Assembly (NCBI GenBank): GCA_022414725.1
Contig: CM039463.1
Location: 79,174,742 to 79,238,741 of the forward strand
Source: Microglena sp. YARC
Taxonomy: Eukaryota; Chlorophyta; Chlorophyceae; Chlamydomonadales; Chlamydomonadaceae
Direction of reading: 5' to 3'
Length of the DNA stretch: 64,000 nt
A model generated the notes under the pieces. That model saw only the letters and a list, made by a program, of their open reading frames with translations. It did no database searches and was not told the DNA's origin. A program made the position numbers and the translations under genes. This document shows positions 2,457-27,900 of this stretch, one piece after another; position 1 is the stretch's first letter; every line of letters begins with the position of its first letter.

Positions 2457-2460
2457 ACTT

Positions 2461-4815: not shown

Positions 4816-4816
<1 letters not shown>

Positions 4817-4864
<48 letters not shown>

Positions 4865-5264: not shown

Positions 5265-5575
5265 GAGGGGCCAGATGAGCTGAGTGAGATGTTGTGAGTG
5301 ATGAGAAGCGCTGTGTGAACATATGAGCTGAGTGAAGATATTATAACAAGGGGGGGGGGGGCGATGAAATGAGTCAGATGCTCTGATTGATGAGCTGAGC
5401 TGAGCGAGATACGCCAAGTGAGAAGATAAGCTTAATGGGATGCGCTTAGTGAGATGCGCTGAGTGATGAGATGAGCTACGTAATATGCGCTAAGTGATGA
5501 GATGAATAGAGAGATGAGATGAGTGAAATTCGCTATTTTGCAGGGCTTAGGGATGAGATAAGCTGAATGAGATGA
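5265..5575. repeat. Degenerate GATGAG/CTGAGTGAGAT minisatellite in an intron
   Basis: Short words such as GATGAGCTGAGTGAGATG recur with variation between the exons at 5,064-5,254 and 5,824-6,058. The mirrored tract is about 34,970-35,285. A 12-G run interrupts it at about 5,350. No coding role is evident. Confidence 0.6.
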
Positions 5576-7275: not shown

Positions 7276-7509
7276 GTGTGTGTTTGTTCGCCCAATTTTG
7301 AATGTGTTAGGACCAAAGGCCAGTTGGGGGGTTACATGGGGGTTATCACGGTACATTGGTCGTTTCGATTGAATGGTCCGTTCGCCCACTGCCAATTCAA
7401 GTATGCCGGGACGAAAACTGCCAGTACATCATACTGGCTTGGATTGTTACATGGCTATTCCTATGGCTTCTCTTTGGTATATCTTCCAATTAAAAGTATA
7501 TCAGTGTAA
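7276..7509 (+). other. Open frame in spacer, unrecognised
   Basis: A 77-codon frame is open on the plus strand and also in the mirrored right arm (33,079-33,287), but the two copies differ in start region and length. No motif is recognised. Because the inverted repeat is recent, openness in both arms is weak evidence. The following stretch to about 8,100 shows no supported gene. Confidence 0.2.
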
Positions 7510-8119
7510 TATGTAACCAGGGATCAGACTAATTAAAATAAGCAGACGAAAATAAAGTACAAGTTTAAACTTAATCATTCAAATGGTTGAGTTTTTAGCT
7601 TCTATTTCATCAGTCTTTACCTTTTCTGATTTCTATGTCTTTAAACATTGCTAAAGATGGCGAGCAACTATAAGCAACCCATAGCCGTGTACTTCAGGTC
7701 GGGGTGGTAAAACCAATTCAACAAAACTACTTATTATCTGCCATAGGAACAACGTTAGTTCCGTTTTTTTTCTTCCGGTTGACTACCCAAAATACATAAT
7801 GATAATAAGGAGTATGCATGTAACAATCAAACCCAATAGTTTATACTACCCGTGTCCATCCTGGCATACATAGCTTATAACTTGAAAGTGAAGTTCTTTA
7901 CATTGATCGCCGTACGTAGTGGGCAGAAACATTATTACCAATTCAAATCGAACAAGAAGATTCTGTACTCCCGCGATTTGCTTTGGCACCCTCTCCTAAC
8001 TGTAGACAAAATATAATACTGTATGTCTCCTTTTGCGGTTTCAAGGGACTAGCTACGTAGCGTGAAAGGGTTTGACCTGATCGATTACACTGACAGTGTG
8101 ACGCCCAAGCCAACATATT

Positions 8120-8370
8120 GTCGGTCACACCTGCAATCTAAATACAACACTTCAACTCTACAGATAGATCACTAGAATGGAAAGACAGCTGTGCTTGCAA
8201 TCTGAACAAGACGCAAATTCAGCTGGACTTCTGTACAAATAGCTGAGCGCCAGGCTGAGCAGCTGCCTGGCAGCTACACAGATAATCCCATGTGGGGTGC
8301 CTGCAATGCATAGGCAGTAAGCGTGGGAGACGACGTTCTACATTTCGTCGGAAAACACCTGCAATCTAAA
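8120..8370. repeat. Single satellite-A-type unit (left arm)
   Basis: One isolated unit begins CACCTGCAATCTAAATAC and contains ACTTCAACTCTACAG, CAGCTGCCTGGCAGCT and TGCCTGCAATGCA. It is an outlying relative of the tandem array that starts near 8,900. Its mirror is about 32,215-32,480. Confidence 0.7.
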
Positions 8371-8634
8371 TATTGGCAAGATTAAGTATTGGCAAATGTC
8401 GTTTCCTTAAAGTGGGTTTCAGAAAAGCATGGAAAACAAACTTGGCAAAGGGGCCTATGGCTTTGACTGTCTCAAGCTCATACCCGAATCCAGTTAGCAA
8501 AGGGTCTTATGTTATTGTTACATTACCTTGTTACATGTTCTCAAAGTAGTCTACCCAAGCTTGCTGTAAAACCATGTGACAATTTAAATCAGGAGCACTA
8601 ACCTTCTAGGGCCTAGTAAGCCAGACCGATACAA

Positions 8635-8666
8635 GTCTCCAGCCAGTCAAATTGCTGGCTGGAGAC
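8635..8666. repeat. Perfect 12-bp-stem hairpin (left arm)
   Basis: GTCTCCAGCCAG and CTGGCTGGAGAC flank an 8-nt loop. The sequence from the hairpin's second half into ACACGTAACCAAATTCA closely matches the end of the 33-bp tandem array near 63,054-63,090 and a single copy near 60,005-60,040. The mirrored hairpin is at 31,906-31,937. Confidence 0.85.
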
Positions 8667-8869
8667 ACGTAACCAAATTCAAGGTAAAGTACAAGCTCAC
8701 AAAGAAGTCTGCCTAAGCTTGCTTAAAATAAACCATGTAGCAATTCAAATCAGGAACATTTTACTTGCTAGGGCTTAGTAGACAAGGTACCATGGTAACC
8801 GTAAATTGGCAAAGTCCAACCACCTGGAGTGGTCTTAAGCTGGATACCTAGTACCTGTTTGGCAAAGGG

Positions 8870-10190
8870 TCGTTTCCCAAACCGTTCGCCAATACATAAG
8901 GCTCGTACAGTACAACAACTCTACAGATCACTAGACTGGAAAGGCAGCGGCCTGCAATCTGAACACGCCGATTATTAAGCTGGACTGCTATACTTATAGC
9001 TGAGCGCCAGGCTGGGCAGCTGCCTGGCAGCTCCACAGATCATCTCATCAGGGGGGTGCCTGCAAGGCACAGGCTGTAAGCGCGGGAGACACTCTACATA
9101 TTGTTTGGCCACGCCTGCAATCTAAATCACAACCACTTCAACTCTACATATCACTAGAATGGAAAGGCAGCAGCCTGTAATATGGCACGCGCTATATTAG
9201 CTGGACTGCTATAGCAAATAGCTGAGCGCCAGGCTGGGCAGCTGCCTGGCAGCTCCACAGATCATCTCATCAGGGGGTGCTGCAAGCACAGGCTGTAAGC
9301 GCGGGAGACGCTCTAATCATATCTGTTGGCCACGCCTGCAATCTAAGTAAACACTTCAACTCTACAGATCACTAGACTGGAAAGGCAGCGGCCCTGCAAT
9401 CTGAACACGCGCTTATTAAGCTGATGCTGTACAATAGCTGAGCGCTAGAGCTGGGCAGCTGCGGCAGCTTCACAGATCATCTCATCAGGGGGGGCCTGCA
9501 AGCACAGGCTGTAAGCGCGGGAGACACTCTACATATCGTTGGCCACGCCTGCAATCTAAATAGGCAACACTTCAACTCTACAGATCACTAGACTGGAAAG
9601 GCAGCGGCCTGCATCCTGAGCACGCGCTTATTAAGCTGGACCTGCTGTACAAATGCTGAGCGCTATCGCGGGCTGGGCAGCTGCCTGGCAGCTCCACAGA
9701 TCATCTCATCAGGGGGTGCTGCAAGGCACAGGCTGTAAGGGCAGGGGAAGACCTCTACATATCGTTGGCCAGCCTGCAATCTAAGTACAAGCTTCAACTC
9801 TACAGATATAAACTGGAAAGGCAGCGGCCTGCAATCTGAACACGCCGCTTATTAAGCTGGACTACTGTACAAATAGCTGAGCGCCAGGCTGGCCGCTGGG
9901 GCCTGGCAGCTCAGAAAAAACACAGATCATCTCATCAGGGGGGTGCCTGCAAGGCACAGCTGTAAGCGGGGAGACGCTCTACATATCGTTGGCAACCCTG
10001 CAATCTAAATACATCACAAAACTCTACAGATCACTAGAATGGAAAGGAGCGGCCTGCAATCTGAACGCGGTGAAGGACACCACGCTTATTAAGCTGAACT
10101 GCTGTAACAAATAGCTGAGCGCTAGGCTGGGCAGCTGCCTGGCAGCTCCACCAGATCATCTCATCAGTGGGGGGTGCCTGCAAGGTACAG
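8870..10190. repeat. Satellite family A array (left arm)
   Basis: About six units of roughly 220 bp. Each contains GCCTGCAATCTAAAT, ACTTCAACTCTACAGATCAC, TGGAAAGGCAGCGGCCTGCA, AGCTGAGCGCCAGGCTGGG, CAGCTGCCTGGCAGCTCCAC and CAGGCTGTAAGCGCGGGAGA. Units differ by many single-base indels, which looks like uncorrected long-read noise or old decay. The right arm has only about three to four units (30,885-31,650). Confidence 0.9.
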
Positions 10191-12088: not shown

Positions 12089-13088
12089 NNNNNNNNNNNN
12101 NNNNNNNNNNNNNNNNNNNNNNNNNNNNNNNNNNNNNNNNNNNNNNNNNNNNNNNNNNNNNNNNNNNNNNNNNNNNNNNNNNNNNNNNNNNNNNNNNNNN
12201 NNNNNNNNNNNNNNNNNNNNNNNNNNNNNNNNNNNNNNNNNNNNNNNNNNNNNNNNNNNNNNNNNNNNNNNNNNNNNNNNNNNNNNNNNNNNNNNNNNNN
12301 NNNNNNNNNNNNNNNNNNNNNNNNNNNNNNNNNNNNNNNNNNNNNNNNNNNNNNNNNNNNNNNNNNNNNNNNNNNNNNNNNNNNNNNNNNNNNNNNNNNN
12401 NNNNNNNNNNNNNNNNNNNNNNNNNNNNNNNNNNNNNNNNNNNNNNNNNNNNNNNNNNNNNNNNNNNNNNNNNNNNNNNNNNNNNNNNNNNNNNNNNNNN
12501 NNNNNNNNNNNNNNNNNNNNNNNNNNNNNNNNNNNNNNNNNNNNNNNNNNNNNNNNNNNNNNNNNNNNNNNNNNNNNNNNNNNNNNNNNNNNNNNNNNNN
12601 NNNNNNNNNNNNNNNNNNNNNNNNNNNNNNNNNNNNNNNNNNNNNNNNNNNNNNNNNNNNNNNNNNNNNNNNNNNNNNNNNNNNNNNNNNNNNNNNNNNN
12701 NNNNNNNNNNNNNNNNNNNNNNNNNNNNNNNNNNNNNNNNNNNNNNNNNNNNNNNNNNNNNNNNNNNNNNNNNNNNNNNNNNNNNNNNNNNNNNNNNNNN
12801 NNNNNNNNNNNNNNNNNNNNNNNNNNNNNNNNNNNNNNNNNNNNNNNNNNNNNNNNNNNNNNNNNNNNNNNNNNNNNNNNNNNNNNNNNNNNNNNNNNNN
12901 NNNNNNNNNNNNNNNNNNNNNNNNNNNNNNNNNNNNNNNNNNNNNNNNNNNNNNNNNNNNNNNNNNNNNNNNNNNNNNNNNNNNNNNNNNNNNNNNNNNN
13001 NNNNNNNNNNNNNNNNNNNNNNNNNNNNNNNNNNNNNNNNNNNNNNNNNNNNNNNNNNNNNNNNNNNNNNNNNNNNNNNNNNNNNNNN
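12089..13088. other. Assembly gap (1,000 N)
   Basis: Exactly 1,000 N, a conventional placeholder, so the true distance is unknown. It hides the left boundary of the viral block and whatever lies between it and the left arm. The long frames that appear to cross it are artefacts. Confidence 1.
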
Positions 13089-13099
13089 TATGGGTGAAT

Positions 13100-16000
13100 T
13101 TTGAGTCGACAGTCTGATTCCCAGAGATTTGCGCCAGAGTAGATATATATACCTACGGATAATGACCATTAGCAAGTAAAAGTCATCTACAAAAGCTAAT
13201 TCGATCCGATTTATTATTTTGCTACCTTGAAATGTTAATCGCAGTTGGAAACTAGACATTGATCATGGAATTCCTTAATTCTGGGAAATGATTCTTGGTC
13301 AATAAGCCGGTGTTAATGCTCGTTATATCTACTTACCCGTGCTTAGAACATTACACCCGGTTCGACTGCTAGTCCAATAGCTTGTAGGGATTTACAGGAA
13401 CGATTAGTTAATTGAATTAGAATTTCCATCGAATTTAAAGTGGTTTTCCCTGTCAATGCTGTCCAGGTGCCATTAAAAATTTGTAATAGTCCCATTGATT
13501 CGGAATCCTGTTGCATTAACATATCCCATTAACATCCCAATGGGTAAGCCGGATTCTGTTTACCCTAATCCTCTAACGAGCATCAGCATTAGCGGCAATA
13601 AGTGTACAATGGTGCTCCCATTTCTATGCCACCCAGCTGTGTTTTTGCAGAATACCCCCCATATTGTTATAGTCTTGCCGTAAATTTGATATCACCATCC
13701 GCTTCTGAATTGTCAATTATATCACCCCATGCATTTCAATAAACATCTCCAAGAGATCGTAAAATTACCCCATGTATTGACTACAGCTGGTTTGTTTGTC
13801 AAATCGTTATAATTCCCAAAAAACCAGAAATGTCGCAGCCAGTACCATACTGCTACACCGTTTTGTATCAAGATCTGATTTTGCATTTATAGTGCCATCA
13901 ACGTCTAATAGTATGATGGTGTTGTATTCGGGTACCTTGTATTCCGACGGATCCATTATCGGCCTTAGTCATTCGAGTCAAAGGTTCCCGATAGCTGGAG
14001 CTTGTTCTAGTTTAAAAAGCTAAATTTACCACCCTGATATTCTCCGAGCAACTCCTTTATGATTACAATTGCCCCGTCATCAGGTGTATCTGCCACGCCA
14101 AATGCCTGTTAATCCACATGAAAACGCCATTCCCATGTTTCCCTGTGATAGTTCCAAGATCGAACATCATCAAATTTATTATATTCATATATAGTCGCGA
14201 ACTATCCGATAAACGTTAGAAAAGACTGCAACCGCCACTCCATCGAGAAGATTTCAGAATTGGGCCGGTTCCTATTCCACAATGTAATGACTCCAGAATG
14301 ACCTAAATACAACCAAGTGCCTTGATGTACTTGGTGCAAGGGAGCAAAATTAAGATCCGCATAATCACCGAAAATAATAATTGGTTTATCGGTTAAGGAT
14401 AAAAAGAAAGGGTCGCTTATACGACTTGGAAAACAGGTCGGTCGGTGTTTGCAGAAACTATTATAATTCTCCATCGAAATAAAACGGCGTTTATTGGCGT
14501 TAAAAAACGTAATCTCCATTAAAAGCAGGATGTTGCCAATTTCCACACCATTTACCCTGAAAACCCATACGTATTGATATCGCCAATAACATCGAGTGCA
14601 TATCCTGGGTTCGCATACCAACTCCAATACAGGTGCCCCACTTTCGGTTGAGCCGCATTATCTGGTGTCACCCAGGACGGATCCTAATTTATACCAGATC
14701 CATTCCTGCGCCAAATTGAAGTTCTTTTTATCATTCTGACCTGACATAAGACTGATCCAGAATTATGTAACAGTTGTAATCCCCATACTGACATTTTTGA
14801 GTTCTGAATTAACGCCACTTTAAATTTTGATGGCAGAGATTGTTATGTTCCCGAATGTGTTTGTATTCGTTGAAGTGGCGTGAACCATTAACCAAAATTG
14901 ACATTAGACAGTTGAGTAGAACCAACGACATGCCAAAGCATACCCTGGTGGTTTGTTGTACCAATCCAAGATGACCGGTATCCAATAACCACTCATAAGC
15001 GGTTGTGAGTCTCTGAAACCTAGTTTCCAATTAAAGCCAGAGTTTTGTTTATTAGAAGCTCTTGTCAATGCACAAATGTCATGTCTTCCAGCGCTTTCAA
15101 TGACCATTGCGTAAATTCGATCTAATTGTACAATGTTATCAATCGTAATAAAACCGCATTTTAATAACTGGGTTTTTGTTTCGCCTGAACAGAGGATGTT
15201 TCCAACCACGTCCCAAGGGCCTGGGACGGATTCTGGGTACCTTCCCTAACGAGCATCTGCCGTTAGTGACTAAGCTGCGTATATGTGGGACCCAGTCCTA
15301 TGCACGAGTTGTGTTTTGCAAGTACTCCCCATCACTATTAAAGTCTGTTTGTAAAATTGATATCACCATCGCTTATATTGTCACCTTAGCACCAGTGCCT
15401 TAATGACTCTCCCAGAGATCGTAATATTCCCCATTATTGACTACAGCTGGTTTGTGAAGATTCGTTATATGACGCCTGAAAATAGTGTGGTTTTCCAGTC
15501 AAGGTACGCGTCATGCTCCATGCGAACAGCGCTGATAGGATTTCCTCCGACTCTAAGAGATCCGTACAATTCACGTCCCCAGAACATCCAATGCGTAAGC
15601 ACGGAATTCAGTAAGTTTATACCGTAATGAGCATCTGCCAGTTGAGTGACATAAGGTGCTATATGTAGGGACCCAGTCCCTCTATGCCACCAGCTGTGTT
15701 TTTGCAAATACCCCCCATCATATTAAAGTCGTTGTAAAAATTGAATCACCATCGCTTTATAATGTCAACCCTGCACCAGTGCTTTATGACATTCTCCATA
15801 GATCGTAATATTCCCCCATTTATTGGGGACTAACTGCTGGGTTTATTTGTCAGATCGTTATAATTGACCCCTGAAAATAGTTGTGGTTGCCAGTCAAGGA
15901 AGAGTTAATACCCTATCAAATAAGGCGGGTTTATCTGTAATATCAGCCAATGAGCCGTGGTGAATCCTTCAATTGCGGTAGGTTAATTGACAGCACTAAC

Positions 16001-16250
16001 AATTTTATTACTGATGGAAACAGACTGGTACTTGGCATTAAACTGCTGCATTTGATGAAATTCAGTCTTTTGGATACATGTAGTTAGATACAACACCTAA
16101 TTGCGAACTGAATACAATACCAAAAACTTGTGTTTGAAACACAACCTGAGGGGGAAAAGACAACCTAGTGCCTATCCTGATTAGCAGTTGCCCCTAGGTT
16201 TTGGCAAATGACGCAAACATCATTAGCTCCGTTTCTCATACTTATTTGCC
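13100..16250 (-). pseudogene. Fibre/tail-fibre-like virion gene, frame-broken, with tandem modules
   Basis: The minus strand, read in shifting frames, contains the repeated words of viral fibre proteins: NYNDLTNKP at 15,839-15,865 and again at 13,788-13,814, SLADITDKPALF near 15,912-15,955, PGYALDVIGDINTYG near 14,563-14,620 followed one frame away by VFRVNGVEIG, and GYVNATGFRINGT near 13,490-13,530. An imperfect module of about 380 bp recurs near 13,740, 15,410 and 15,790. NYNDLTNKP-type and PGYALDVxGDIN-type motifs are known from phage and algal-virus fibres that often end in an intramolecular chaperone domain; I do not see that domain, and the 3' end may be in the gap. The role would be host attachment. 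Numerous frame breaks mean either a pseudogene or poor consensus. It is convergent to the unknown left end and divergent from the capsid genes. Confidence 0.65.
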
Positions 16251-16260
16251 TGAACCCTGG

Positions 16261-16563
16261 TTATTTGTGTGGCTGTCCAAATATATATTTGACTGCGAAT
16301 ACATTAAGTTCATGGAACATATAATTTATAACAATGAGAACAAGGAAAGTTGTTAAAAAATTAACAGTTAAGAACAAATCCAAAATCACATCAAGCTTAT
16401 TCTGCAAGAGTAAGAATATTTCATCAACCGACGCGTACCATCTATAAACATTAAAATTATCAGCCGACAGGACACAGCTAGAATGCATAAGGGTATAATC
16501 AATTTGAAGTTGCCATAAATCCGCACAAACCCCACGATAATGGTCGTCAGATGTGACCAACAT
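16261..16563 (-). CDS. Small hypothetical protein with membrane segment
   Basis: A 100-codon minus-strand frame upstream of the fibre region. Its C-terminal third contains LDLFLTVNFLTTFLVLIVIN, a good hydrophobic helix. I recognise no family. It could be the N-terminal part of the fibre gene in a shifted frame or a separate small membrane protein. An alternative overlapping frame at 16,386-16,580 is also open, so the choice is uncertain. Confidence 0.3.
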   Translation of the reverse strand: MLVTSDDHYRGVCADLWQLQIDYTLMHSSCVLSADNFNVYRWYASVDEIFLLLQNKLDVILDLFLTVNFLTTFLVLIVINYMFHELNVFAVKYIFGQPHK

Positions 16564-16599
16564 TCAGCTGTGGAAACCACTGGTTCAAATCTGTTCAGA

Positions 16600-17069
16600 C
16601 AAACAGCAAAAAAAACAACAACCCCAAACAGGATACATCAAGTGGCGTCAAGTGGTTTAATCAGCCGTAAGAGAAGGAAATCTTTTCCCCAATTAAAACC
16701 GTTCTAGAGAGACATGGATTCTCCCTTTTTGCCGTTCAACTACGCCAAATGTGTCGGAATCAGAAATCCCGCGGGAAGTGTCAGGCTTCCAGGACAAGTT
16801 CCTAGAAAAAAACATGGATGATCTCAACAAAAAATAAAAATGTTTGATTCCAAACATGAAAAAGTTGGAACTTCTGCCACAATCAAAAACTAGATATAAT
16901 AGCTATTTGCTACGAAAGAATGGCAAGGGAGAAACAATGATCCCAAGCATTGGCAAAATCCTTTTGAATCGACCAGCAGTCCTCTCATCATTACAAACAA
17001 ATTTACACTTATCTGAAGGGTAAAATAAAAAAACATTTTTATTATTTTTCAAAAACAATACTTATAACA
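16600..17069 (+). promoter_or_regulatory. Intergenic region upstream of capsid genes, likely promoter
   Basis: An AT-rich stretch with no supported gene apart from a short frame near 16,712 (MDSPFLPFNYAKC). The last 60 bases before the capsid start are strongly AT-rich (AAAAAACATTTTTATTATTT) and end CTTATAACA-ATG. The divergent arrangement with the minus-strand fibre gene makes a shared promoter region plausible. No specific promoter motif is claimed. Confidence 0.35.
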
Positions 17070-18258
17070 ATGTTCGGCTTATCCAAAAATCTGCAGTATC
17101 TGGTGAAAAAAATACAGAATTATTCGCGGGCGACTAAGCGATTAAGTACGCTCAATTCCACGACTGCAACGAATTCCCGCGTGATAACCGTAGATCTTCC
17201 TTCAAACTGCTTGGTAGATAGTGATACGTTGATTATGCACTTCAATGGGAAAACTGATGTTGGTGGATTTGCAAGAAACATAGAGTCGATAATTTCCCAA
17301 GTGGATTTAGAGGTGAATGGAATGGTTGTTTCGGGTTGCTCAAATTACAATCAACTATTTAATATCATTGCTGATAAGAGTTTTGGAGAAGATGCGCACA
17401 ATCGGAGAAAGATCGTACAAGGAGGAGGGGACGCATCAGCTGGCCCATCTGCTGAAGCACCATATTCCATATCTAACTGGTTGAGTCTTAACAGCTTTCA
17501 ACCGTCTATCCTTGATACTACACTATTAGGACAGGTCCGACTACGAATTCAACTTTGACGGAGCAAAATTGTTTAGTCGGGAGGAGGAACCTTCAACACT
17601 ATCAGATATTTTATTCAGTGTCGATGACAATCTCCATTGAACGACGGGATTTTTTGACTCCTGCATAACGCAATTCTTATCGAGTGTGGAGGCGGTATAC
17701 GAGCTAACTTTCCGAAATTATTTCAGTTTTAGCAGCGCGGCAACTTCCTATAGTCAATCAACTAAATTTAGTGTATCTTCTCAATCCGTCAATAGGGCGT
17801 GGGGGACTTTTGTGGCACAGAGTTTAGCCATCAGGTGGGCTTGATGGAGTTACAAAATCAAGTAACACCTTCACAAGAAAAGCGACTGGAATGGGAAGCG
17901 CGCAATTTAATTTAAATGGCGTATACACGCCTGATTTCCGTGCGAATCCGGGTCAGTGTTTTGCCCTAACGCAGTCATCATATAATCAATTACAATCGGC
18001 AGATGGAGGTTCCCACCCGTATTTGGATAATTATACTAAATGGAGAGACAACTTTTTTTGCCTAAGTTGCAAGTTTTGCCACAACGATGATTCGTTCCTA
18101 TCTGGCGTGTACACCAGGGGCAATTCAAGCATAGGGTCATTTGACACTCGGAGCATAGGTGGTGCGGCTGGTCAGAATCGCTGACAGCCTTGTCTTTCAT
18201 CGAATGTGGTTCCATGTTAAGGATAGGAGCTGGAAGACAATTGGAATTAGTACTCTAA
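17070..18258 (+). pseudogene. Polinton-like virus major capsid protein (double jelly-roll type), frameshifted
   Basis: The N-terminal 162 codons are open and carry the PLV major-capsid pattern: LPSNCLVDSDTLIMHFNG, then NIESIISQVDLEVNG and YNQLFNIIADKSFGED with NRRKIVQ. Downstream, other frames continue the same protein: RNYFSFSSAATSYSQSTKF and SVNRAWGTFV near 17,710-17,810, NLNGVYTPDFRANPG near 17,915, YLDNYTKWRDNFFCLS near 18,020, and a last segment with ECGSMLRIGAGRQLELVL ending at a TAA at 18,256-18,258. The family forms the icosahedral shell. Total length of about 396 codons is short for a double jelly-roll, so part may be missing. At least three frame changes are needed; they may be mutations or consensus errors. 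Confidence 0.8.
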
Positions 18259-18313
18259 ACTGTTTGGTTAGCTTTGCTAACAAAATATAAAACATATCTA
18301 ACAATAATATAAA

Positions 18314-19423
18314 ATGAACCCTGTACCAAAACACATTACAAAGGTGTTTTGTTTTGAGGCAATCGGTGATACTATTTTTTCCCCCAAAAGTCAATGCGTA
18401 TTCGAGATAAATGAAGGGATTTGGGATTTGAACAGCGCGAAGATAATGTTTACAATGAATTCATTAGGAGTCGCTCCACGTGGGATCGGATGTATGATCA
18501 GCACTCTTTCAGTATATTTTGATGATGTATTAATTCAAACAATAAATGAGTATAATCATTTGGCTAGGATGGATGGACGTACATACTCGCTCACACAAGC
18601 CTCGACTAATATCTTTGGAGAATAATCAAGCAGTCGACATTGTTGCAGAGATAGATCGGATACGTTCGTGGATTGATAAATTCATGGTTTCCTAGGAACT
18701 AAGGACTGTATTTGTTTAAAGGCAAAATCAGAATCGTTATTGAGTGGGCAGATTCTGTGGTGCTGTTAAGACAAAATGTATCTGTTGGATATGAAATTGT
18801 AAAACCAACGCTCATTATCAAAAGTGAAATAAAAGACAACGTATCCGATAGAATTGAATTCGATAATTTCACCAGTCAATTTCAACTCAATGAATCCGAA
18901 AATCAAACAACAAATATATTTGTTGGATCACGTGACATTGAATATGTATTGGCTACTTTTTTACAGTACGATTATTATAAAAAGGTGTCCACACAAGACT
19001 GGAACGGTACAAGCTACTTTTTTAGTCATGGATTAAAAGAGATTCATCTTAAAAGTAATCCAGTTTATGTAGGTTTTAGTATTAACAATATACCTCTCGC
19101 AAATCATCCTATTCCTTATGATAAAGCAATAGAATACATGGATTTCATATTCGATAACGACAATCGTGCGATTGAACACCTCATGACGCACACAGTGGAC
19201 GGGACATTATTGTTGAGATTTCCCCCCAACGATCACATCTTACCAATGGGCATGCGGGCTCCCTATTGATATAGAGAATGAAGGAGATATCAATTATGAT
19301 ATTTCATTTTATTCAAACGGAAACAATAATATAAAAAATTACTCACTTTTATTCGTGAAATACAACAGTCTTCTAGAATTAGATAATGACGAAACGGGTT
19401 CAAAATATATTTACACGAAGTAA
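18314..19423 (+). pseudogene. Second capsid-like protein of the PLV, frameshifted
   Basis: Three blocks in different frames read as one protein of about 370 codons: 18,314-18,625 (with WDLNSAKIMFTMNSLG and YFDDVLIQTINEYNHLARMDG), 18,712-19,269 (with GKIRIVIEWADSVVL, VGYEIVKPTLII, FLQYDYYKKVSTQDWNG, SHGLKEIHL) and a C-terminal block ending at TAA 19,421-19,423 (DINYDISFYSNGNN, SLLFVKYNSLLELD). The layout of beta-rich segments resembles the first capsid gene and other jelly-roll virion proteins. I infer a major-capsid paralogue or a second shell component, but this rests on pattern, not strong signature residues. It starts with ATG after an AT-rich gap of 55 bases, probably its own promoter or a read-through unit. 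Confidence 0.55.
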
Positions 19424-19431
19424 TATATAAC

Positions 19432-19635
19432 ATGAACAAATATATGTTACCTCTCTGCATCGAGTCCTGGCCTAAAAAAACACAGTACAATCAACCAGCA
19501 ACAAACTTTATTGGCAGACGAACAATACGCACACCCTTACATGAATCAGACCTACTATGGGGAAGACCGATCCCAAGGAAGCCTCTTGCCGTTAAAATTC
19601 TTATAACATTGCCTGTGTCTCTCAAATTCCAATAA
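19432..19635 (+). CDS. Small hypothetical viral protein
   Basis: A 67-codon ATG frame just after the second capsid gene. No domain is recognised. A second frame over the same bases (NQQQTLLADEQYAHPYMNQ) also looks protein-like, so this could be another frameshifted gene rather than the frame given. It lies in the same direction as the capsid and ATPase genes. Confidence 0.3.
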   Translation: MNKYMLPLCIESWPKKTQYNQPATNFIGRRTIRTPLHESDLLWGRPIPRKPLAVKILITLPVSLKFQ

Positions 19636-19699
19636 ATTATTTGTAAAACCTATTTAATTTTTCTAATTAATTCTAATCTTTTCTAATGTAAAATCACAT

Positions 19700-20209
19700 A
19701 TGGAGAATATAGAAGAAGATAACAACATATTAGAAGACATTTCAGTAATACCAGTCAAAGCTAAACGGGTTATGTCCGAGAAACAGAAAGCATCATTGGC
19801 TATCGCCAGAGAAAAAGCTTGGGCGAAGAGACGGGAATTAGGAGAGATTACACGACAGGAGAAAGAACTGAAGATTCAAGAGAAACAAGTCAAAAAACAG
19901 GAAAAAACGGCAGAAATGACACGTCGCAAAAACACTGTCTTTAAAAAGCTGAAGAAGGATGTGGTTGTTGCTATAGACAGTTCAGACGAAGATCAACAGA
20001 TTGTAACAAATTCTCAATCAGACGAAGAAGAAGAAGAACAGATATCAAAATACATTGAAAAACGTCTGAAGGTCACCAAAGCTAGGCCAACAATATCTCA
20101 AACACTTACTCAAGAAGATACAGTACAACTCCTTAGGGAAAAAATATTAAACGAGGGCAAACGAGTCGCTTACCAATCACTCTTTCCTGGTCACACATGT
20201 CCGTTTTGA
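19700..20209 (+). CDS. Charged coiled-coil virion/DNA-associated protein
   Basis: Intact 169-codon frame from ATG at 19,700. Residues about 25-75 are very rich in lysine, glutamate and arginine with heptad-like spacing (MSEKQKASLAIAREKAWAKR, then EKELKIQEKQVKKQEK), predicting a long helix or coiled coil. An acidic patch follows (SDEEEEEQ near residue 113). Comparable lysine-rich proteins beginning with an EKQ-LA-AREKA motif are common beside the capsid and ATPase genes of PLVs and Polintons; their function is not established. A role as nucleic-acid-binding or scaffold protein is inference. It is preceded by a very AT-rich 60 bases that could be a promoter. Confidence 0.6.
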   Translation: MENIEEDNNILEDISVIPVKAKRVMSEKQKASLAIAREKAWAKRRELGEITRQEKELKIQEKQVKKQEKTAEMTRRKNTVFKKLKKDVVVAIDSSDEDQQIVTNSQSDEEEEEQISKYIEKRLKVTKARPTISQTLTQEDTVQLLREKILNEGKRVAYQSLFPGHTCPF

Positions 20210-20234
20210 TTAATATTCTACAATGTAATTAGTG

Positions 20235-21094
20235 ATGAATATTGTTGAGAACGCAGTAGCAAATTTCAGTCATAAACCACTCTAATACAAAGCAAACAAG
20301 TATCCACAGTCCCTCAATTCAGCTCTGCCACGTAATTATTTTGTGTCACTCCTAGTCGGCTCCAGAGGAAGTGGGAAGACGTACAGTCTCTGCAAATTAT
20401 TGAAACAATACGAGATTTATGGATTTAATGACAAACAAGATATGAGAGTTATAGTAATTTCCCCGACACATGATGCCAATCCTGTATTTAATTGCTTGAA
20501 AATTGATCCAAATGATATCATTTCAGAATATTCAGACTCCAAACTTTAGAAGTGATTGAAAACATCAAACTAGAAAAGGAAAATACAGAAGAATGCAGAA
20601 GGCAGATGATTGTTTATTCCAAGTTTATGAAAGGCAACATAGACGGACTGTCGTTTGAAGAAATCGATTTCCTTGAGAGAACTGGATACCAACGACCTAC
20701 ATGCAAGTACCCAAACGGTTGTGTGGTATATCTCATATTGGACGACCTTGTTGGCAGTAGTGCGTTTAAATCTGTTGGTAAATCAGCCTTGACTAATTTG
20801 GTTCTCAAGAACAGACATTTGGGTATAAACATAATGATTTGCACCCAGAATTTGAAAGCAATCCCTAAGTCTATCCGAACCAATACAAGTCTTTTTGTGT
20901 TATTCAAATTTGCCAGCACTAAGATATTGGAAGATTTGTATGAAGAAGTAAGTAGTTCTATTACTATACAGAAGTTCGAATCACTCTATCTGCACGCAAC
21001 GGAAAACGAACATGATGCACTTGCAATGGATTTTAGACAAGACAAAAGCCAAAGGTTCAAAAAGAATTTTGACATCATTCTCAGCTTACAGTAA
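20235..21094 (+). pseudogene. A32/FtsK-HerA-type genome-packaging ATPase, one stop and one frameshift
   Basis: Walker A is GSRGSGKT near 20,361-20,384, Walker B is VVYLILDDLVGS near 20,720-20,757, and the sensor region reads GINIMICTQNLKAIPKSIRT near 20,824-20,883, all typical of the packaging ATPases of PLVs, Polintons, virophages and NCLDVs. It would pump viral DNA into capsids. From ATG at 20,235 the frame meets TAA at 20,283-20,285 and then continues in the same frame (NYFVSLLVG) into Walker A. Near 20,540-20,552 the frame shifts, and the rest is open to 21,094. Length of about 285 codons fits the family. One stop plus one shift may be errors. The centre of the giant palindrome, near 20,270, falls in this gene. 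Confidence 0.85.
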
Positions 21095-21122
21095 AATTAT
21101 TTTTCTGAATTATTGTTAAACA

Positions 21123-21374
21123 ATGGCGGCTATCACAAATGAATATAGACAGACCAATGATTATAAGTATCTTAAATCAGCAGTATTGGATTTGTCACCC
21201 GGACTGCCGGAATACTTAGTGGATTCGTGCATTTCCCTACATATTGCTAAACCACTCATGTATAGGGACAAAAAGCTTCTACGGAAAGATATGAATAAGC
21301 AGAAAAAACCGGTTTCAAACGAGGTATTGGAAGGTTTGGTCACTGTAGAAAATGAAAAATATACAGTAATATAA
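21123..21374 (+). CDS. Small hypothetical viral protein
   Basis: Intact 83-codon frame from ATG. It contains LPEYLVDSCISLHIAKPLMY and a basic stretch (RDKKLLRKDMNKQKK). It starts 28 bases after the ATPase stop, and its own stop directly abuts the next ATG (TAA-ATG at 21,372-21,377), indicating a compact viral transcription unit. I recognise no family. Its place between ATPase and minor capsid genes suggests an assembly role, which is inference. Confidence 0.6.
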   Translation: MAAITNEYRQTNDYKYLKSAVLDLSPGLPEYLVDSCISLHIAKPLMYRDKKLLRKDMNKQKKPVSNEVLEGLVTVENEKYTVI

Positions 21375-21776
21375 ATGGCTTGGCAGAGAGTAACGTTATT
21401 TAGCTCATACAATACATCAACACAGAACTACCAATTAAAACTAAATTGTGACCTGCCATACAATGAAAAGGGGTACCAGCTGGCTGTCGAATCATTTACC
21501 ACAGCGAGTAAACCAGGGCCGTTCTGCATGAGTGCAAATGGGATCTTCGCACAAACCTCTTTTGATAATTCAGTGAATGGAGAGAGAACCAACTTGCTTT
21601 TAGGGGGAGAAACGCACAGTATCGTTAAGACAATTTCGAGCAATACGCTAGGTCACAAGCTAATCCCGTCTCTGAAAAATCAACAATTAAATATAACAGT
21701 CTATGACGCCAATGGAAATCTGTATGTAGGATTCCCAAACTTCATACTATCAGTTATTATCTATGAAATTATATAA
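21375..21776 (+). CDS. Minor capsid/penton-like jelly-roll protein, candidate
   Basis: Intact 133-codon frame. Beta-rich sequence with no long helix: an N-terminal strand pair (NYQLKLNCDLPYNEKGYQLA), a central loop with SANGIFAQTSFDN, and a C-terminal LKNQQLNITVYDANGNLY followed by FILSVIIYEI. This strand pattern resembles single jelly-roll minor capsid proteins that sit next to the YxSSQ-RTSGTPDNF protein in PLVs and related elements. It overlaps the next gene by one base (TAATG at 21,774-21,778). The exact vertex or cement role is not established from the sequence. Confidence 0.5.
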   Translation: MAWQRVTLFSSYNTSTQNYQLKLNCDLPYNEKGYQLAVESFTTASKPGPFCMSANGIFAQTSFDNSVNGERTNLLLGGETHSIVKTISSNTLGHKLIPSLKNQQLNITVYDANGNLYVGFPNFILSVIIYEII

Positions 21777-22594
21777 TGGCGCCCATTGTTGTCAAAACTC
21801 AATTAATATACATCAGCTCACAATACAGAACATCTGGGACACCAGATAACTTCACAACAAGTCTACCTGCAGGGATCTTACATAACGAATTCGGTGGTCG
21901 TACTGAAATAACCGTTACGGATTTAATAATCAATAGATGTTTCTATAGTATTAGGGCGAGTAACAATGACTTCAGTGTTGTTAATAATGGGACAAAGACA
22001 TCCGTTAGAATCCCTGTTGGAAACTACGACCTGGATCAATGGTTAGCAACACTTAACACTTTACTACCAGGCTGGACCATTAGCCACAATGAGATCAATG
22101 GATTATGCACTTATAACACACCTGGTCCAAATTATGGGTTTGAAATTCAAAAGATAAAAGTTCAATATTTATTTGGGTTCCTCCCACATGATAAGCCAAT
22201 TGGATCACAGATTATTAGTTCTTCCCCATTGCGTCTGAACCTAGAAAGTTTTCTGACAATTCATCATAACCTCCCAAAGGTAACTAACTCGGCTGTGAAT
22301 AATTTCCGTCAAACCAATGCACAGGAATCAGATGTATTAATAAGGGTTCCGGTTAACGTCCCTAGTTTTGCCAACATCATTTATCAAAATGTGAATGACG
22401 ATTTTAGCTTCTACACCAGTGCGTCTCACGTGTCAGAACTGGAATTATCAATCAAGGATGAACACAAAGACGAGATAGGACCTTTTCCCTACGACTGGAG
22501 CATTACTTTGAGGATAGATTATGAATCCAAAAACGATCCTATAGAATCGATTTTACATTACATTACATTACATTACATGTTAAAGTCTACTTGA
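21776..22594 (+). CDS. Minor capsid (penton-type) protein of PLV
   Basis: Intact 272-codon frame beginning with ATG overlapping the previous stop. The N-terminal IYISSQYRTSGTPDNFTTSL followed by ITVTDLIINRCFYSI and RIPVGNYDLDQWLATLNTLL is a recognisable signature of the minor capsid/penton proteins of PLVs, adintoviruses and virophage-like elements. The C-terminal YDWSITLRIDYES matches their final beta strand. It would occupy capsid vertices next to the major capsid protein. The last codons run into a CATTA pentanucleotide repeat (22,555-22,577), so the true C-terminus may have been altered. Clear start and no internal break make it one of the best-preserved genes here. Confidence 0.75.
   Translation: MAPIVVKTQLIYISSQYRTSGTPDNFTTSLPAGILHNEFGGRTEITVTDLIINRCFYSIRASNNDFSVVNNGTKTSVRIPVGNYDLDQWLATLNTLLPGWTISHNEINGLCTYNTPGPNYGFEIQKIKVQYLFGFLPHDKPIGSQIISSSPLRLNLESFLTIHHNLPKVTNSAVNNFRQTNAQESDVLIRVPVNVPSFANIIYQNVNDDFSFYTSASHVSELELSIKDEHKDEIGPFPYDWSITLRIDYESKNDPIESILHYITLHYMLKST
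22553..22577. repeat. CATTA pentanucleotide repeat
   Basis: About four to five copies of ACATT/CATTA at the 3' end of the minor capsid gene, encoding HYITLHYM-type residues. Confidence 0.85.
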
Positions 22595-22599
22595 CACCG

Positions 22600-22832
22600 C
22601 GAGGGTGTATGAGACTCTGTGCTTTAAACAAAAAGAAAAAGCACCCACAAAGCAAAAAAACCCATTACATCAGGGGTGTGTCGAGGACAAACAAACCAAA
22701 CTCCCAACCACCGTTTTGGTGGCGTAGGTATTAAAACCCTTAGAGCAGGACCCAGATCTCAACCACTTACAGTGGCGGAGGTAAGAAGCTAACAAATGAG
22801 AAGTCTCAAGAAGAAAAAAAAGGGATAATAAA
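22600..22832. other. Spacer with short hairpins, no gene seen
   Basis: It contains a small inverted repeat ACACCGCGAGGGTGT just after the minor capsid stop and ACCACCGTTTTGGTGGC near 22,710. They could act in 3'-end formation of convergent transcripts, but this is a guess. Confidence 0.35.
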
Positions 22833-23063
22833 TTACGGTGCCACTAAGCAGTCCAGGGCTTCCTGTCTTGCTCTTCTACAAGTAGAAAGATAGTCGGCTA
22901 GGTTGCTCCAAAAAGACTTAGTGCCATTTCCATTCATAAAGGTTCTGAATGTGGAATCGCAGAATTCCACATTCCATACGGTTAAGTCGGTATCCTCATG
23001 GACATGCCTATAAATATCTGTAAACAGATTCTGGTAGCGGAGGCGAATATCATTATAAAAATA
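22833..23063 (-). CDS. Unrecognised minus-strand frame without ATG
   Basis: Seventy-six codons open from just after a TGA (23,064-23,066) to TAA at 22,833-22,835. Composition looks protein-like: YQNLFTDIYRHVHEDTDLTV, CDSTFRTFMNGNGTKSFWSN and CRRARQEALDCLVAP. A run of eight T (A on the minus strand) directly upstream could hide a frameshift joining it to the frame at 22,982-23,173. An 11-bp-stem hairpin (22,947-22,974) lies inside. It is convergent with the minor capsid gene. No family is recognised. Confidence 0.35.
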   Translation of the reverse strand, partial: YFYNDIRLRYQNLFTDIYRHVHEDTDLTVWNVEFCDSTFRTFMNGNGTKSFWSNLADYLSTCRRARQEALDCLVAP

Positions 23064-23154
23064 TCAATTTTTTTTAGTTTATCAATTTTGAAAAACCTAA
23101 ACGATAAAATTACCTTACTTGCACTGAAATAAATATCCAGGGCTATTATATAAT

Positions 23155-23460
23155 ATGGGCATCTTTGATTCAATCAAATGGAGTTGGACGCGCAATTGGC
23201 TCATTTGGAAACGTAGTGAGAAGGGTAGCTGATTTTGGGGGCAATGTAGCCCGGAAGGTAGGTCAATTCTCTATACAGCTGTCTAACGGCATATAGCGGT
23301 ATAAGCGGACATGTTGGGACAAGGAGGCGGTAGCAGACCGGGATCAGAAGTGTAGGAAAGCGCGTTACATGGTTTTTCAACCGGAAGCAGAGAAAAATCC
23401 TGTCTAAAGCTAGCGGAATCGGGAGAGTAGCTCAGGGAATAGGCAAAGTCATGATGTAGC
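23155..23460 (+). pseudogene. Glycine-rich amphipathic (pVI/pX-like) small virion protein remnant
   Basis: ATG at 23,155 starts MGIFDSI. One frame over, from 23,174 to TAG at 23,294-23,296, the sequence reads GVGRAIGSFGNVVRRVADF and then GGNVARKVGQFS, a repeating glycine/valine/arginine pattern. A further block near 23,410-23,455 reads SGIGRVAQGIGKVM. Short proteins with such repeats occur in PLVs, Polintons and adintoviruses and are compared with adenovirus pVI or pX, which act on membranes or condense DNA. Identification is by composition and gene context. At least two frame breaks make this copy non-functional as written, unless they are consensus errors. Confidence 0.55.
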
Positions 23461-23494
23461 GGGGTTCCGCTAACCAACAGTCAGTCGCTTCGCT

Positions 23495-23545
23495 CATGAC
23501 TTCCTCTTGACTTCCTCTTGAACTTCCTCTTGACTTCCTCCATTC
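23495..23545. repeat. Short GACTTCCTCTT tandem repeat
   Basis: Four imperfect 11-12-bp copies of ACTTCCTCTTG lie just after the last viral fragment. This may be the approximate right edge of recognisable viral sequence; I saw no terminal inverted repeat. Confidence 0.75.
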
Positions 23546-24190
23546 CTCCTCCTGCGAAGTAGCGGGGGGCGGAACGGTAACCGGTATATTCAGTCGCATC
23601 CTGCGCGGAGAGTAGAAAGGTGTAACAAAGTGTAATGAATCGTATTTTGTTCGTATTTTGTCGTATTAACAAATAATTTCGACGAGTTGCAGGCAGCAAA
23701 CGGCGAGACTGTATTCGTCTGCAGGCACAGTAAAACCTCCCTTGGAAAGAGTGCAGTCTACAACCATGCTCAACCCAAGAAGTGCCAATTCGCAGGTCTA
23801 CGTCAAGCGCTACTGGAGGAGCACTAAGTGCTGAAGGTGAAGATCCCGTGCTGGTGGGCTTGGGACTGGGGAAGGGGGGCGAAGGGAACGGGAATGGTGG
23901 TGGTGGAGGGGGGGGAGGCTGTGGTGGGTTGGGGGAGGCTGGGGTCGCTGGGGGGAGATGGAATCTGTGGGTGGGTGGGGGCAGAAAGGGCAGCTGTGGA
24001 GGCTGAGTGGTGCTGGGAGCAGCATTGGTGGTGCTGGAAGTTTTCGGGTGGTGCAGGCGGCAGAAAGGTGGCACATATTTGGCTGCCTGGAGCATTCGAC
24101 ATCCAACTGCAGGGGAAAAGGAGGGAGGGGGGGGGGAGGGGGGGGGGGGGGGGACTCTAGAGAGATCTCTGGTAGCAACCACATACCAGT
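23546..24190. other. G-rich spacer with proline-rich shadow frames
   Basis: G-rich on the plus strand (runs near 23,905-23,920 and 24,120-24,153), so all minus frames are proline-rich. Near 24,067-24,120 a plus frame reads HIFGCLEHSTSNCRGK, which resembles a retroelement zinc knuckle lacking two cysteines. No gene is called. Confidence 0.4.
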
Positions 24191-24762
24191 TTAAAACTCA
24201 CGACCTCCTGATTTCACAGCCCCGGCGCAATACAGCCAACTCGCTCGCAACATAGAGACATGTTGCGTGACCTGCCTCTCCACTGACAAATATCTCCCCC
24301 AACCCACCTATCTGCTGCAACACCCACGAGCACGCACGCACAAAAATCTCATCTGCACCCCCCGCACATACAGGCAGCTTTGGTCGCCTTACTCTTTCAT
24401 ATGCATTCCCCTCCACCACAAACACACTACCCACCTCACATACATACGCACACTACCATGCACTCCTCAGCTAAACGCCACACCGCAGATATCCTGCATG
24501 ACCTGCATCTCTACTGCCCCCCACCCCTTCCCCCTAAAAATAATCCCCACACATTCCCATGTGCTCTTTACCTCACCAACACCCCACACCACATAAACAC
24601 ATATTGTTGAGACCCACCTTCCTATCACATCCACCCTCGTCTGTCCTCTCTCGCCCACCCCCCACACACCCAAAGATCACCACCATGCATAAACACACGC
24701 AAATACTGTTTTGACCCACAATAACATTCATCCCCCCCCCCCCACACACACACACACACACC

Positions 24763-24793
<31 letters not shown>

Positions 24794-24957
24794 AACCACC
24801 ACCACCACTACCACCACCACCACCAGATGCAGACACACCCCTACACGCCCAACCACCACCCGGGGGCCACCAACTGCACACAAACGCACACGCAAATAAC
24901 TCTGTGACTTCCCCCCCCCCCCCCCCCCCCCCTCCTCCCCAACTCCAACCCCACCCA
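24190..24957. repeat. CA-rich simple-sequence region ending in poly-C
   Basis: C/A-rich DNA with a (CA)n tract at about 24,745-24,800, CCA repeats near 24,800-24,825 and 22 C at 24,911-24,932 next to the satellite. Reading frames here are low complexity and not genes. Confidence 0.7.
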
Positions 24958-27900
24958 GTTATGTGTTCATGCTGCAGGCAGATGCCTAGTCTGGCAATCT
25001 GCAGAGTTGAAGTGCTGTGTTAATATTGCAGGTGTGGCAATCGATATGAAGAGCAGCTCCAGCTCTTCCTCTCTGTCAATTGCAGGCGCCAACCTTTGTA
25101 TATTATATGTACAGCAGCCAATCTAGTGAATCCTGTGATACATACAAGATTCTAGCTGAATTAGTTGTGTGCTTATGTTGCAGGTAGCTGTCTAGTCTGG
25201 CCGATCTGCAGAGTTTGAGTGATATGTTTAGATGCAGGCATGGCAGACAATATGTAGAGCAGCTCCAGCTTGTAATGGTCCTGTCCATTGCAGGCACCAA
25301 CCTTTTTTTAGATTATATGTACAGGTGCTAATCTAGTAATGTACAATACGTACTGCATTCTAACTGAATTTAGTTATGTGTTCATGTGGCTGGGCAATCT
25401 GCTAAGACTTGCAATCTGCAAGAGTTGAAGTGTTGTGTTTAGAATTTCAGGCGTGGCAGACAATATGTTCCCGCAGCTCCAGCTCGTATGGTCTGTCCAT
25501 TGCAAGGCGCAACCTTTTTAGATTATATGTACAGCTGCTAGGCAGCTGCTTGTCCAGTGGCCTGCTATATGCACTGTAGACGACCAGCTGAACTAGTCAC
25601 ATCGTGCTCAATATTCAGGCATCTGCTAGTCTGGTGATCTGAAGAGTTGAAGTGTTTGTGTTTAGATTGCAGGCGTGGCAGACAATATGTACAGCAGCTC
25701 CAGCTCCGGATGGTCTGTCCCATTGCAGGCACCAACATTTTGTATATTATATGTACAGCTGCTAGGCAGCTGCTATTTCAGTGGCCTGCTATATGCACTG
25801 TAGACGACCAGCTGAACTAGTCATAGTGCTCATATTGCACGCATCTGCCTAGTCTGGTGATCTGCAGAGTTGAAGTGTTGTGTTTAGATTGCAGGCTTGG
25901 CAGACAATATGTACAGCAGCTCCCCCAAAGGCCCCCTGGTCCAGTTGGCGCTAACTACACTCTGCCTAGATCTGGTGCTCATGAAGACCTGAAGTGATTG
26001 CAGGCGCCACCGTCCCCACTGCTCGCACCTTCCAGCACTCGGCCAATATCACATCTATTGCTGCTGCTCAGCTGCTTGTACATGGCCTGCTATATGCACT
26101 GTAAGACAGTGCTAGTCATGTGCGTATCAGCATCTGCCAGTAACTAAAAGTCATGTTCTCATATTTGCAGCATCTGCCTACTGAAGACTTGAAGTGTTTT
26201 TGTGTTTAGATTGCAGGCGTGGCACAATATGTACGTGCAGCTCCAGCTCGAATGGTCTGTCCATTGCAGCACCAACCTTTTGTATATTTATGTGACAGCT
26301 GCTGGCAGCTGCTTGTCCAGTGGCCAGCTATATGCACTGTAGACAACCAGCTGAACTAGTTCATGTGCTCATATTGCAAGGCATCTGCCTAGTCTGGTGA
26401 TCTGCAGAGTTGAAGTGTTGTGTTTAGATTGCAGGCGTGGCAGACAATATGTAACAGCAGCTCCAGCTCGAATGTTTGTCCATTGCAGGCGCCAACCTTT
26501 TTTATATTATATGTACAGCTGCTAGGCAGCTGCTTGTCCAGTGTCCTGCTATATGCACTGTAGACGACCAGCTGAACTAGTCAATGTGATCATATTGCAA
26601 GCATCTGCCTAGTCTGGTATCTGATTAGACTTGAAGTGTTGTGTTTAGATTGCTGGCGTGGCAGACAATATGTACAGCAGCTCCAGCTCGGTATGGTCTG
26701 TCCATTGCAGGCACCAACCTTTTTGTATATTATATGTACAGCTGCTTAGGCAGCTGCTAGTCCAGTGGCCAGCATATATGCACTGTAGACGACCAGCTGA
26801 ACTAGTCACTTGCAGCGCATCATATTGCAGGTTGTGTTTAGATTGCATCTGCAGCTAATCTGATTGCAAGCGCCAACCTTTTTAGATTTGCAGAGTAGCA
26901 GCTGAAGTGTTGTGTAGACGACCAGAACTTAGAACTTGCAGGCGTGGCTGGTGAGACAATGTTGTCATGTACAGCGCTGGCAGCTATGATACCAGCTCGA
27001 ATGGTCTGTCCATTGCAGGCACCAACCTTTTGTATATTTATATTTACAGCTGCTTGGCAGCTGCTTGTCCAGTGGCCAGCTATATGCACTGTAGACAACC
27101 AGCTGAACTAGTCATGTGCTCATATTGCAAGGCATCTGCTAGTCTGGTTGATCTGAAGACCTTGAAGTGTTGTGTTTAGATTGCAGGCGTGCAGACAATA
27201 TGTACAGCAGCTCCAGCTCGAATGGTCTGTCCATTGCAGGCGCCAACCTTTTTATGATTATATGTACAGCTGCTAGGCAGCTGCTAGTCAGTGGCCTGCT
27301 ATATGCACTGTAGACGACCAGCTGAACTAGTCACTTGATCATATTGCAAGGCATCTGCCTAGTCTGGTGATCTGAAGACTTGACGCAGTGTTGTGTTTAG
27401 ATTGCAGGCGTGGCAGACAATATGTAACAGCAGCTTTCCAGCTCAATGGTCTGTCCATTGCAGGCACCAACCTTTTTTGTATATTATATGTACAGCTGCT
27501 AGGCAGCTTGCTATTTCTCAGTGGCCAGCTATATTGCACTGTAGACAACCAGCTGAACTAAGTCATGTGCTCATATTGCAGGCATCTGCCTAGTCTGGTG
27601 ATCTGAAGACTTGAAGTGTTGTGTGTTAGATTGCAGGCGTGGCAGACAATATGTACAGCAGCTCCAGCTCGAAATGTTCTGTCCATTGCAGGCGCCAACC
27701 TTTTTTATATTATATGTACAGCTGCTAGCAGCTGCTTGTCCAGTGTCCTGCTATATGCACTGTAGACACCAGCTGAACTAGTCATGTGATCATATTGCAG
27801 GCATTCTGCCTAGTCTGGTGATCTGAAGACTTGAAGTGTTGTGTTTAGATTGCTGGAGCGTGGCAGACAATATGTACAGACAGCTCCAGCTCGGAATGGT

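Follow-up and report, generated by a model that had tools for sequence, protein, structure and literature searches.

A 64,000-nucleotide stretch of the genome of the green alga Microglena sp. YARC (assembly GCA_022414725.1, contig CM039463.1, positions 79174742-79238741; hereafter, the window) almost certainly carries the capsid half of a degraded provirus that belongs to a high-copy family of endogenous Polinton-like viruses (PLVs). The family is characterized by its gene content, terminal inverted repeats (TIRs), target site duplications (TSDs), copy number, low ratio of nonsynonymous to synonymous divergence (dN/dS) and alternative replication cassettes. The window copy is half an element and is pseudogenised; we compared it with other copies found by searching the assembly, which comprises 568,105,699 bases in 2390 contigs.

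A high-copy family of endogenous Polinton-like viruses

Genome-wide match counts are lower bounds, with only the best candidates scored, and some match rows are pieces of one gene. The putative penton (minor capsid) protein has at least 143 matches (405 candidates, 142 scored), and at least 142 places were tabulated at 69-100% identity, which excludes a chance match; 57 of these are at least 85% identical to the window copy (subfamily A), and 85 fall below that value (subfamily B). At least 136 matches were obtained for the second major capsid protein, MCP2 (384 candidates, 131 scored), and at least 143 for the integrase (541 candidates, 142 scored; 142 tabulated). Open frames of about 360 amino acids are common among the integrase rows, and the capsid genes are likewise open in many copies; the penton, MCP2 and integrase counts together support an endogenous family.

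We retrieved 10 copies (five A and five B, in 20 stretches, denoted here by L numbers), along with further upstream stretches for four (two A and two B). Both ends are seen in four copies, two from each subfamily, with lengths, by coordinates, of 16.0, 16.0, 13.5 and 13.6 kb, two of which lie just under the published 14-40 kb range of PLVs. All four are bounded by TIRs and flanked by perfect 6-bp TSDs (TGCATG, GTCGTC, TACCCA and CTCCTC); both complete A copies start with 5'-AGTAAGTATGG and both complete B copies with 5'-AGTTAGTGG. Left and right TIRs agree at 321/321 positions in one copy, at 309/321 (10 gap columns) in another, at 400/470 in a third (57 gap columns, unequal extent) and at 198/202, over part only, in the fourth. 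Therefore, at least one insertion is very young.

From the left TIR inward, the intact copies encode, on the minus strand, the integrase, the replicase, a basic protein of 96-110 amino acids and fibre genes with a Peptidase_S74 domain, followed on the plus strand by the capsid block. The major capsid protein MCP1 is predicted to adopt the double jelly-roll fold of the PLV type: the structure model of a relative with 76% identity is a double jelly roll and, in structural comparison, matched giant-virus and virophage capsid proteins, with the best Z-score to PBCV-1. The shallow MCP2 profile (effective number of sequences, 1.3) aligned with the MCP1 profile in hhalign over 328 columns (probability 96.3, E 1.7e-9), and the penton, included as a control in the comparison with MCP1, gave no match. 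The ATPase of an intact A copy (L013) matches Pox_A32, as expected of a PLV packaging ATPase, at 28.9 bits (cut-off 22.8), and that of a subfamily B copy scores 21.6 bits, just below the cut-off; the 3' piece of the window ATPase matches the terminase phrog_2666 (E 8.2e-7). Peptidase_S74 (PF13884) is detected in the fibre at 45.0 bits in L013 and 44.1 in L019 (cut-off 22). The putative penton is a conserved 275-residue protein at the place expected for the PLV minor capsid protein. Comparison of sequences with solved structures gave no match for the MCP1 profile and the ATPase, only unrelated matches for the integrase and, for the penton, no pertinent hit (the best, to an amyloid-precursor-binding protein, had E 0.027).

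The replicase is read as two abutting open reading frames (992 and 330 amino acids; L031 and L013) with superfamily 1 (SF1)-type AAA_30/AAA_19 matches just below the cut-off (E ~4e-5). Pattern searches located the motifs DINKHY, KGIPNELSGLFGKK, VKTD and GFAGCGKSY, the first three of which are palm-like and kept in both replicase types, which are about 40% identical; a Cys-rich, HNH-like end was matched in L031 only. A single homologous protein was found, 96% identical over 30% of the queried region. As outlined in excerpts from PMC11071308 and PMC12721341, the Tlr1-like helicase joins a protein-primed DNA polymerase B (pPolB) palm, in which the first Asp of DTD is changed, to an SF1 helicase and a GIY-YIG or HNH end, and its N-terminal domains can include vOTU. 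The replicase appears to fit this architecture, with a putative palm. Of the features of Polintons/Mavericks in the strict sense, a retroviral-type integrase, with profile matches below the cut-off, and the 6-bp TSDs are present, and a separate pPolB is not, no DNA_pol_B_2 match having been found in the open reading frames of L031 and L013. In all three integrase types, visual inspection shows Asp where the catalytic Glu of the DDE motif would be expected (GIVDRFTRTLK, GIVDRATRTIK; Table 1).

The host has 118 matches to PF00504 (Chloroa_b-bind), and a translated exon (P0001) matches CP29 chains best (up to E 2.1e-88), pointing to CP29 of the green-lineage type; among the structures matched, 6kac is presumably from Chlamydomonas, and the lower-scoring 7pi0 is one that we take to be from Dunaliella. 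We read the host as a photosynthetic green-lineage eukaryote, probably a chlamydomonadalean alga. A preliminary description of the window, drawn from its letters alone, had proposed an endogenous PLV of an alga, and the MCP1 fold model, the Pox_A32 match, the TIRs, the 6-bp TSDs and these CP29-type genes support that proposal.

The window penton matches that of L014 at 250/259 residues (dN 0.022, dS 0.194), and the 133-residue protein encoded next to it matches that of L013 at 130/133 (dN 0.013, dS 0.372). Between subfamilies A and B, amino acid identity is 298/391 for MCP1, 211/286 for the ATPase, 218/275 for the penton and 181/300 for MCP2, with dN of 0.21-0.34; for dS, only the penton gave a value (2.7), the calculation failing for MCP1, the ATPase and MCP2. 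The protein database contains 55 relatives of MCP1, including TSOC_004216 of Tetrabaena socialis (42% identical). In a tree of 54 rows, consisting of three from this genome and the 51 of the 55 database proteins longer than 330 amino acids, with no reference PLV rows, host B groups with a database protein (P0002; support 100/99) and is separate from host A (L013 and L036; support 100/99). This split would reflect either two separate invasions or the origin of P0002 in a relative of the host.

In the mode of reproduction that we propose, the retroviral-type integrase would insert linear DNA, leaving the 6-bp duplications seen as its footprint. The putative Tlr1-like replicase, read as a fusion of a pPolB palm and an SF1 helicase, would copy the element, a role that canonical pPolB would take in members of the L036 type, described below. 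Judging from gene content and published relatives, the shell would be built from MCP1 and MCP2 with the penton, the A32 ATPase would package the DNA, and the pentons would bear S74-matured fibres for attachment. We infer that intact members of the family form virions.

Several results weigh against the assignment to PLVs or against parts of it. Structure prediction for MCP2, from a 3-row alignment, reached a predicted local distance difference test score of only 27.7, and no profile matched the penton, the pVI-like protein or the 133-residue protein, which were assigned by position and appearance. In the replicase, the PolB palm and the OTU-like portion were recognized by eye from a published description and matched no profile and no solved structure, and the Pfam matches of the integrase are weak and below the cut-off (rve, E 0.0023 in L031; rve_3, E 0.044 in L034). 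TACCCA is the strongest of the TSDs, as the one located in clearly non-repetitive sequence, the other three lying in, or being, short repeats. Finally, no relative was found in IMG/VR, queried with the ATPase, an MCP alignment and three single MCP relatives, or in phage records at the DNA or protein level, so that these collections provide no evidence of a free virus.

Apparent exchange of replication cassettes

Replication genes and capsid genes of the family appear not always to share the same history. In element orientation, L027, which has a B capsid, is 98.2% identical over its first 2867 bases to L031, the upstream part of an A copy; bases 2868-4285 are 89.9% identical to L013, the next part of the same copy, and from 3636 onward L027 is 98.6% identical to the B copy L019. 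Therefore, L027 has its replicase in common with A copies and its capsid block in common with B copies, the switch lying close to the replicase 5' end. In another B copy, L025, the replicase shows 39.7% identity to its A-copy counterpart across 861 residues in a single frame, and that of L019 is 34-42% identical in pieces. A-type termini are also present at the right ends that follow L021 and L027 (L022 and L028).

Pairing of the 142 penton places with the 142 integrase places, 6-40 kb apart on the opposite strand, yielded 69 pairs: 17 A/A-type, 35 B/B-type, 9 A/B-type, 7 B/A-type and one B/outlier (penton/integrase). The integrase types were set by our own 90% and 80% cut-offs and may be blurred by decay, and the 40-kb reach may pair neighbours; these counts are only suggestive of exchange, the L027 joint being the solid case.

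Another cassette contains canonical pPolB. DNA_pol_B_2 (PF03175) has 17 matches in the genome; nine of them have an A-type penton 10-36 kb away, encoded on the other strand, and the remaining eight have, by eye, no listed penton within 60 kb. At one of the 17 places, the partial stretch L036 encodes an MCP1 that is 97.7% identical to that of L013 over 311 residues, a basic protein with 89% identity and, following the capsid side, a fibre whose match to the S74 fibre extends through the final residue. Beyond these come a pPolB, the polymerase of Polintons in the strict sense, here in pieces with exonuclease-type motifs (by eye) and a foreign insertion, and an integrase that is 48-53% identical to the others; DNA similarity to L013 stops inside the small basic gene (L013 position 1163). 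Integrases of the L036 type occupy 13 places at 91% identity or above, L036 included (11 in one piece, two in two pieces), and by eye, an A-type penton lies within 40 kb on the opposite strand in 11/13 of these, and a B-type penton in 0/13.

We moderately favor the interpretation that a common capsid module has served as a chassis, recombining recently and repeatedly with at least three replication-integration cassettes (two apparently Tlr1-like, and one with canonical pPolB and an integrase of its own), and that the joints (two examined) fall in conserved sequence that separates the fibre genes from the replicase 5' end. If so, this genome is a natural record of interconversion among PLVs, Tlr1 elements and Polintons.

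Three penton-free DNA_pol_B_2 open frames of 514, 585 and 755 amino acids (C1:109195174, C1:109441997 and C2378:29657) may belong to other elements.

The window copy and its surroundings

The element of the window had been placed at 13090..23480 in the preliminary description, and DNA homology to other copies covers 13094-23478, with TIR remnants reaching 23667; the outer portion of the right TIR was searched for in this copy and not found. The left side of the element runs into a scaffold gap, so the integrase, the replicase and the left TIR are not represented in the window, and the Peptidase_S74 C-terminus of the intact-copy fibre (L013 residues 468-522) would fall at this gap. The composition is distinct from that of the flanks, as had been claimed: the guanine plus cytosine fraction is 0.390 versus 0.482 on the left and 0.495 on the right, the lowest value among 149 equal-sized right-flank windows being 0.460.

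Mapping by tblastn with proteins of other copies shows broken frames in the fibre, basic protein, MCP1, MCP2, ATPase and pVI-like genes, and the coiled-coil, 84-residue and 133-residue frames and most of the penton are still open (Table 1). The fibre matches fall in all three minus frames and extend to residue 467 of 567. Of the genes named in the preliminary description, the A32/FtsK-type ATPase, found here to be split by a frameshift, the PLV-type major capsid gene, found here in three frames, and the charged coiled-coil gene are present, and the junctions given there, TAAATG at 21372 and TAATG at 21774, agree exactly with the sequence. At the sites of the proposed penton and pVI-like genes, there are, respectively, a conserved protein, identified by position and appearance only, and a broken-frame remnant, identified by appearance only. 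The second MCP, the minus-strand fibre genes, the insertion, the 1000-N gap and the high copy number were absent from that description.

Table 1. Features of the window copy, with the integrase sites read in other stretches (coordinates are those of the window unless another stretch is named)
Feature	Location	Strand	Basis or remark
Scaffold gap, exactly 1000 N	12089..13088	.	sequence
Two degraded tail-fibre genes, repeat types DYADLNFAP / YNDLTNKP	13117..16395	-	tblastn with L013 fibre open reading frames
Basic protein gene (200-228 residues), broken	16316..17024	+	tblastn, three frames, 31-36%
MCP1, double jelly-roll major capsid protein (predicted), broken	17067..18255	+	tblastn; frames 3, 2, 1
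MCP2, diverged second major capsid protein, broken	18314..19420	+	tblastn; frames 2, 1, 2
Charged coiled-coil-like protein, open frame, ATG at 19700	19682..20209	+	open reading frame and tblastn
A32/FtsK-type packaging ATPase, single frameshift near 20546	20229..21091	+	tblastn
84-residue open frame, no family assigned	21120..21374	+	stop abuts next start, TAAATG
133-residue protein, open; jelly-roll-like by eye only	21375..21776	+	open reading frame and tblastn
Putative penton (minor capsid), residues 1-259 of 275	21776..22555	+	96% identity to L014; position and appearance
Insertion in penton 3' end, 523 bp	22556..23078	.	tblastn gene map
Putative penton, final 17 residues, past insertion	23079..23129	+	tblastn
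Glycine-rich pVI-like protein, broken, three frames	23128..23456	+	tblastn; assigned by appearance
Inner portion of right TIR	23458..23667	.	terminal-repeat remnant
Integrase sites with Asp reading	L034:9005-9817, L031:6423-7028, L036:7976-8869		by eye

Within the penton insertion, 256 bases (22560-22815) are a young repeat with 40 full-length matches at 99-100% among those scored, the window's included (1248 candidates); the insertion thus contains recently active mobile sequence of the host genome. Given the frameshifts, the insertion and the outer TIR portion that was not found, the window copy looks dead. An Rfam scan gave no match, and a tRNA search found none.

A long inverted repeat (window 1-9663 versus 40544-30908, main blocks 98.7% and 94.8% identical) flanks the element and its satellite array at 24.9-31.5 kb, which has a unit length of about 220 bp. 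The 4 kb upstream of the window (L035) contain inverted copies of 40545-41079 (96%) and 23672-25162 (92%), so the flanking repeat is no simple flipped haplotig; it is either a segmental duplication or a scaffolding error. We considered and rejected the palindrome as a part of the element: the inverted repeat lies outside it, and the upstream 4 kb continue the repeat only partly. Between 61190 and 63793 lie long stretches of simple-sequence and tandem repeats (arrays of the TTGATCTTG type, of 33-bp and 18-bp units and of GT).

Alternative explanations and known systems

The family might be a purely intragenomic, Polinton-style transposon that passively keeps its capsid genes and forms no virions now, an account that fits the high copy number, with at least one very young copy, and the lack of relatives in IMG/VR. 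We consider it possible but doubtful: the capsid genes are open in many copies, the A and B capsid proteins have kept their identity (e.g., MCP1, 298/391) at a penton dS of 2.7, MCP1 has its 55 database relatives, and the S74-domain fibre is retained. Selection for virions in the recent past would be the simpler reading of these sequences.

It is also very unlikely that the window copy is truly intact and its frameshifts are errors of a noisy consensus. Such errors would not account for the 523-bp insertion in the penton, the outer TIR that was not found, the breakage of the fibre genes over all three frames or the many copies that are open in the same assembly, even though stop codons in such elements are, according to a passage of PMC10120064, often assembly artefacts, and this region has a scaffold gap and many repeats. 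Least credible, to the point of being nearly negligible, is the reading of the element as a virophage (Maveriviricetes) or as a giant-virus fragment. The match of the MCP1 fold to capsid proteins of both groups is in its favor, but the best Z-score to PBCV-1 signifies a shared fold, not membership, and two MCPs, a putatively Tlr1-like replicase, RVE and an S74 fibre are combined here in a TIR-bounded unit of 13.5-16.0 kb; a weak additional point is that Pfam detected no cysteine protease in the 30 fragments and open reading frames scanned, which are a subset, and for which a suitable profile may be absent.

Read as an endogenous PLV family, the elements are a green-algal addition to the known PLVs, high in copy number and partly intact. 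Polymerase type, by which Polintons, PLVs and Tlr1 elements have been told apart, differs here between similar capsid modules in a single genome, and interconversion of these classes thus becomes directly testable. The complete loci with TIRs and TSDs are a basis for asking about particle formation or the response to giant viruses.

Monoraphidium neglectum is a chlorophyte. Its PLV shares with the family an algal host, a PLV-type MCP, RVE and, as in L036, a protein-primed DNA polymerase (PMC4642659, in part). In contrast to the one element mentioned there, we found at least 142 places, and our four complete copies carry the putatively Tlr1-like replicase. More generally, endogenous PLVs are described as widespread in protists, chlorophytes included (PMC10120064), with Cymbomonas as a further case (PMC10675990). 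The Tlr1 element of Tetrahymena thermophila, as portrayed in PMC11071308 and PMC4642659, likewise combines an RVE integrase with capsid proteins and a packaging ATPase, and its large Tlr1-like helicase, to which the replicase of the family appears to correspond, takes the place of a separate pPolB. The family differs from it in the green-algal host, the two MCPs, the S74 fibres and the HNH-like C-terminus, read by eye, as opposed to the GIY-YIG end of Tlr1 (PMC12721341, in part).

Also close to the family are the PLVs of cryptophytes (Bulzu 2025, PMC12220804), which are reported to have lineage-specific expansions, rve-INT, 6-bp TSDs, an adjacent MCP pair in some, S74 fibres, SF1 helicases and a conflict between the pDNAP and MCP trees, taken as modular exchange. 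RVE, TSD, double MCP, S74 fibre, SF1 helicase and modular exchange have thus all been reported already, and related recombination is described in parts of PMC12220804 and PMC8547959. The latter presents EMALE02 of Cafeteria burkhardae, also a recombinant endogenous element with one genome half swapped; there, a virophage-like element probably took a PLV-like capsid half, whereas here the capsid half is common, and the replication-integration half differs. In this family, unlike in the cryptophyte PLVs, exchange can be seen by aligning the DNA of closely similar modules from a single green-algal genome, and it is this resolution that makes the algal family stand out.

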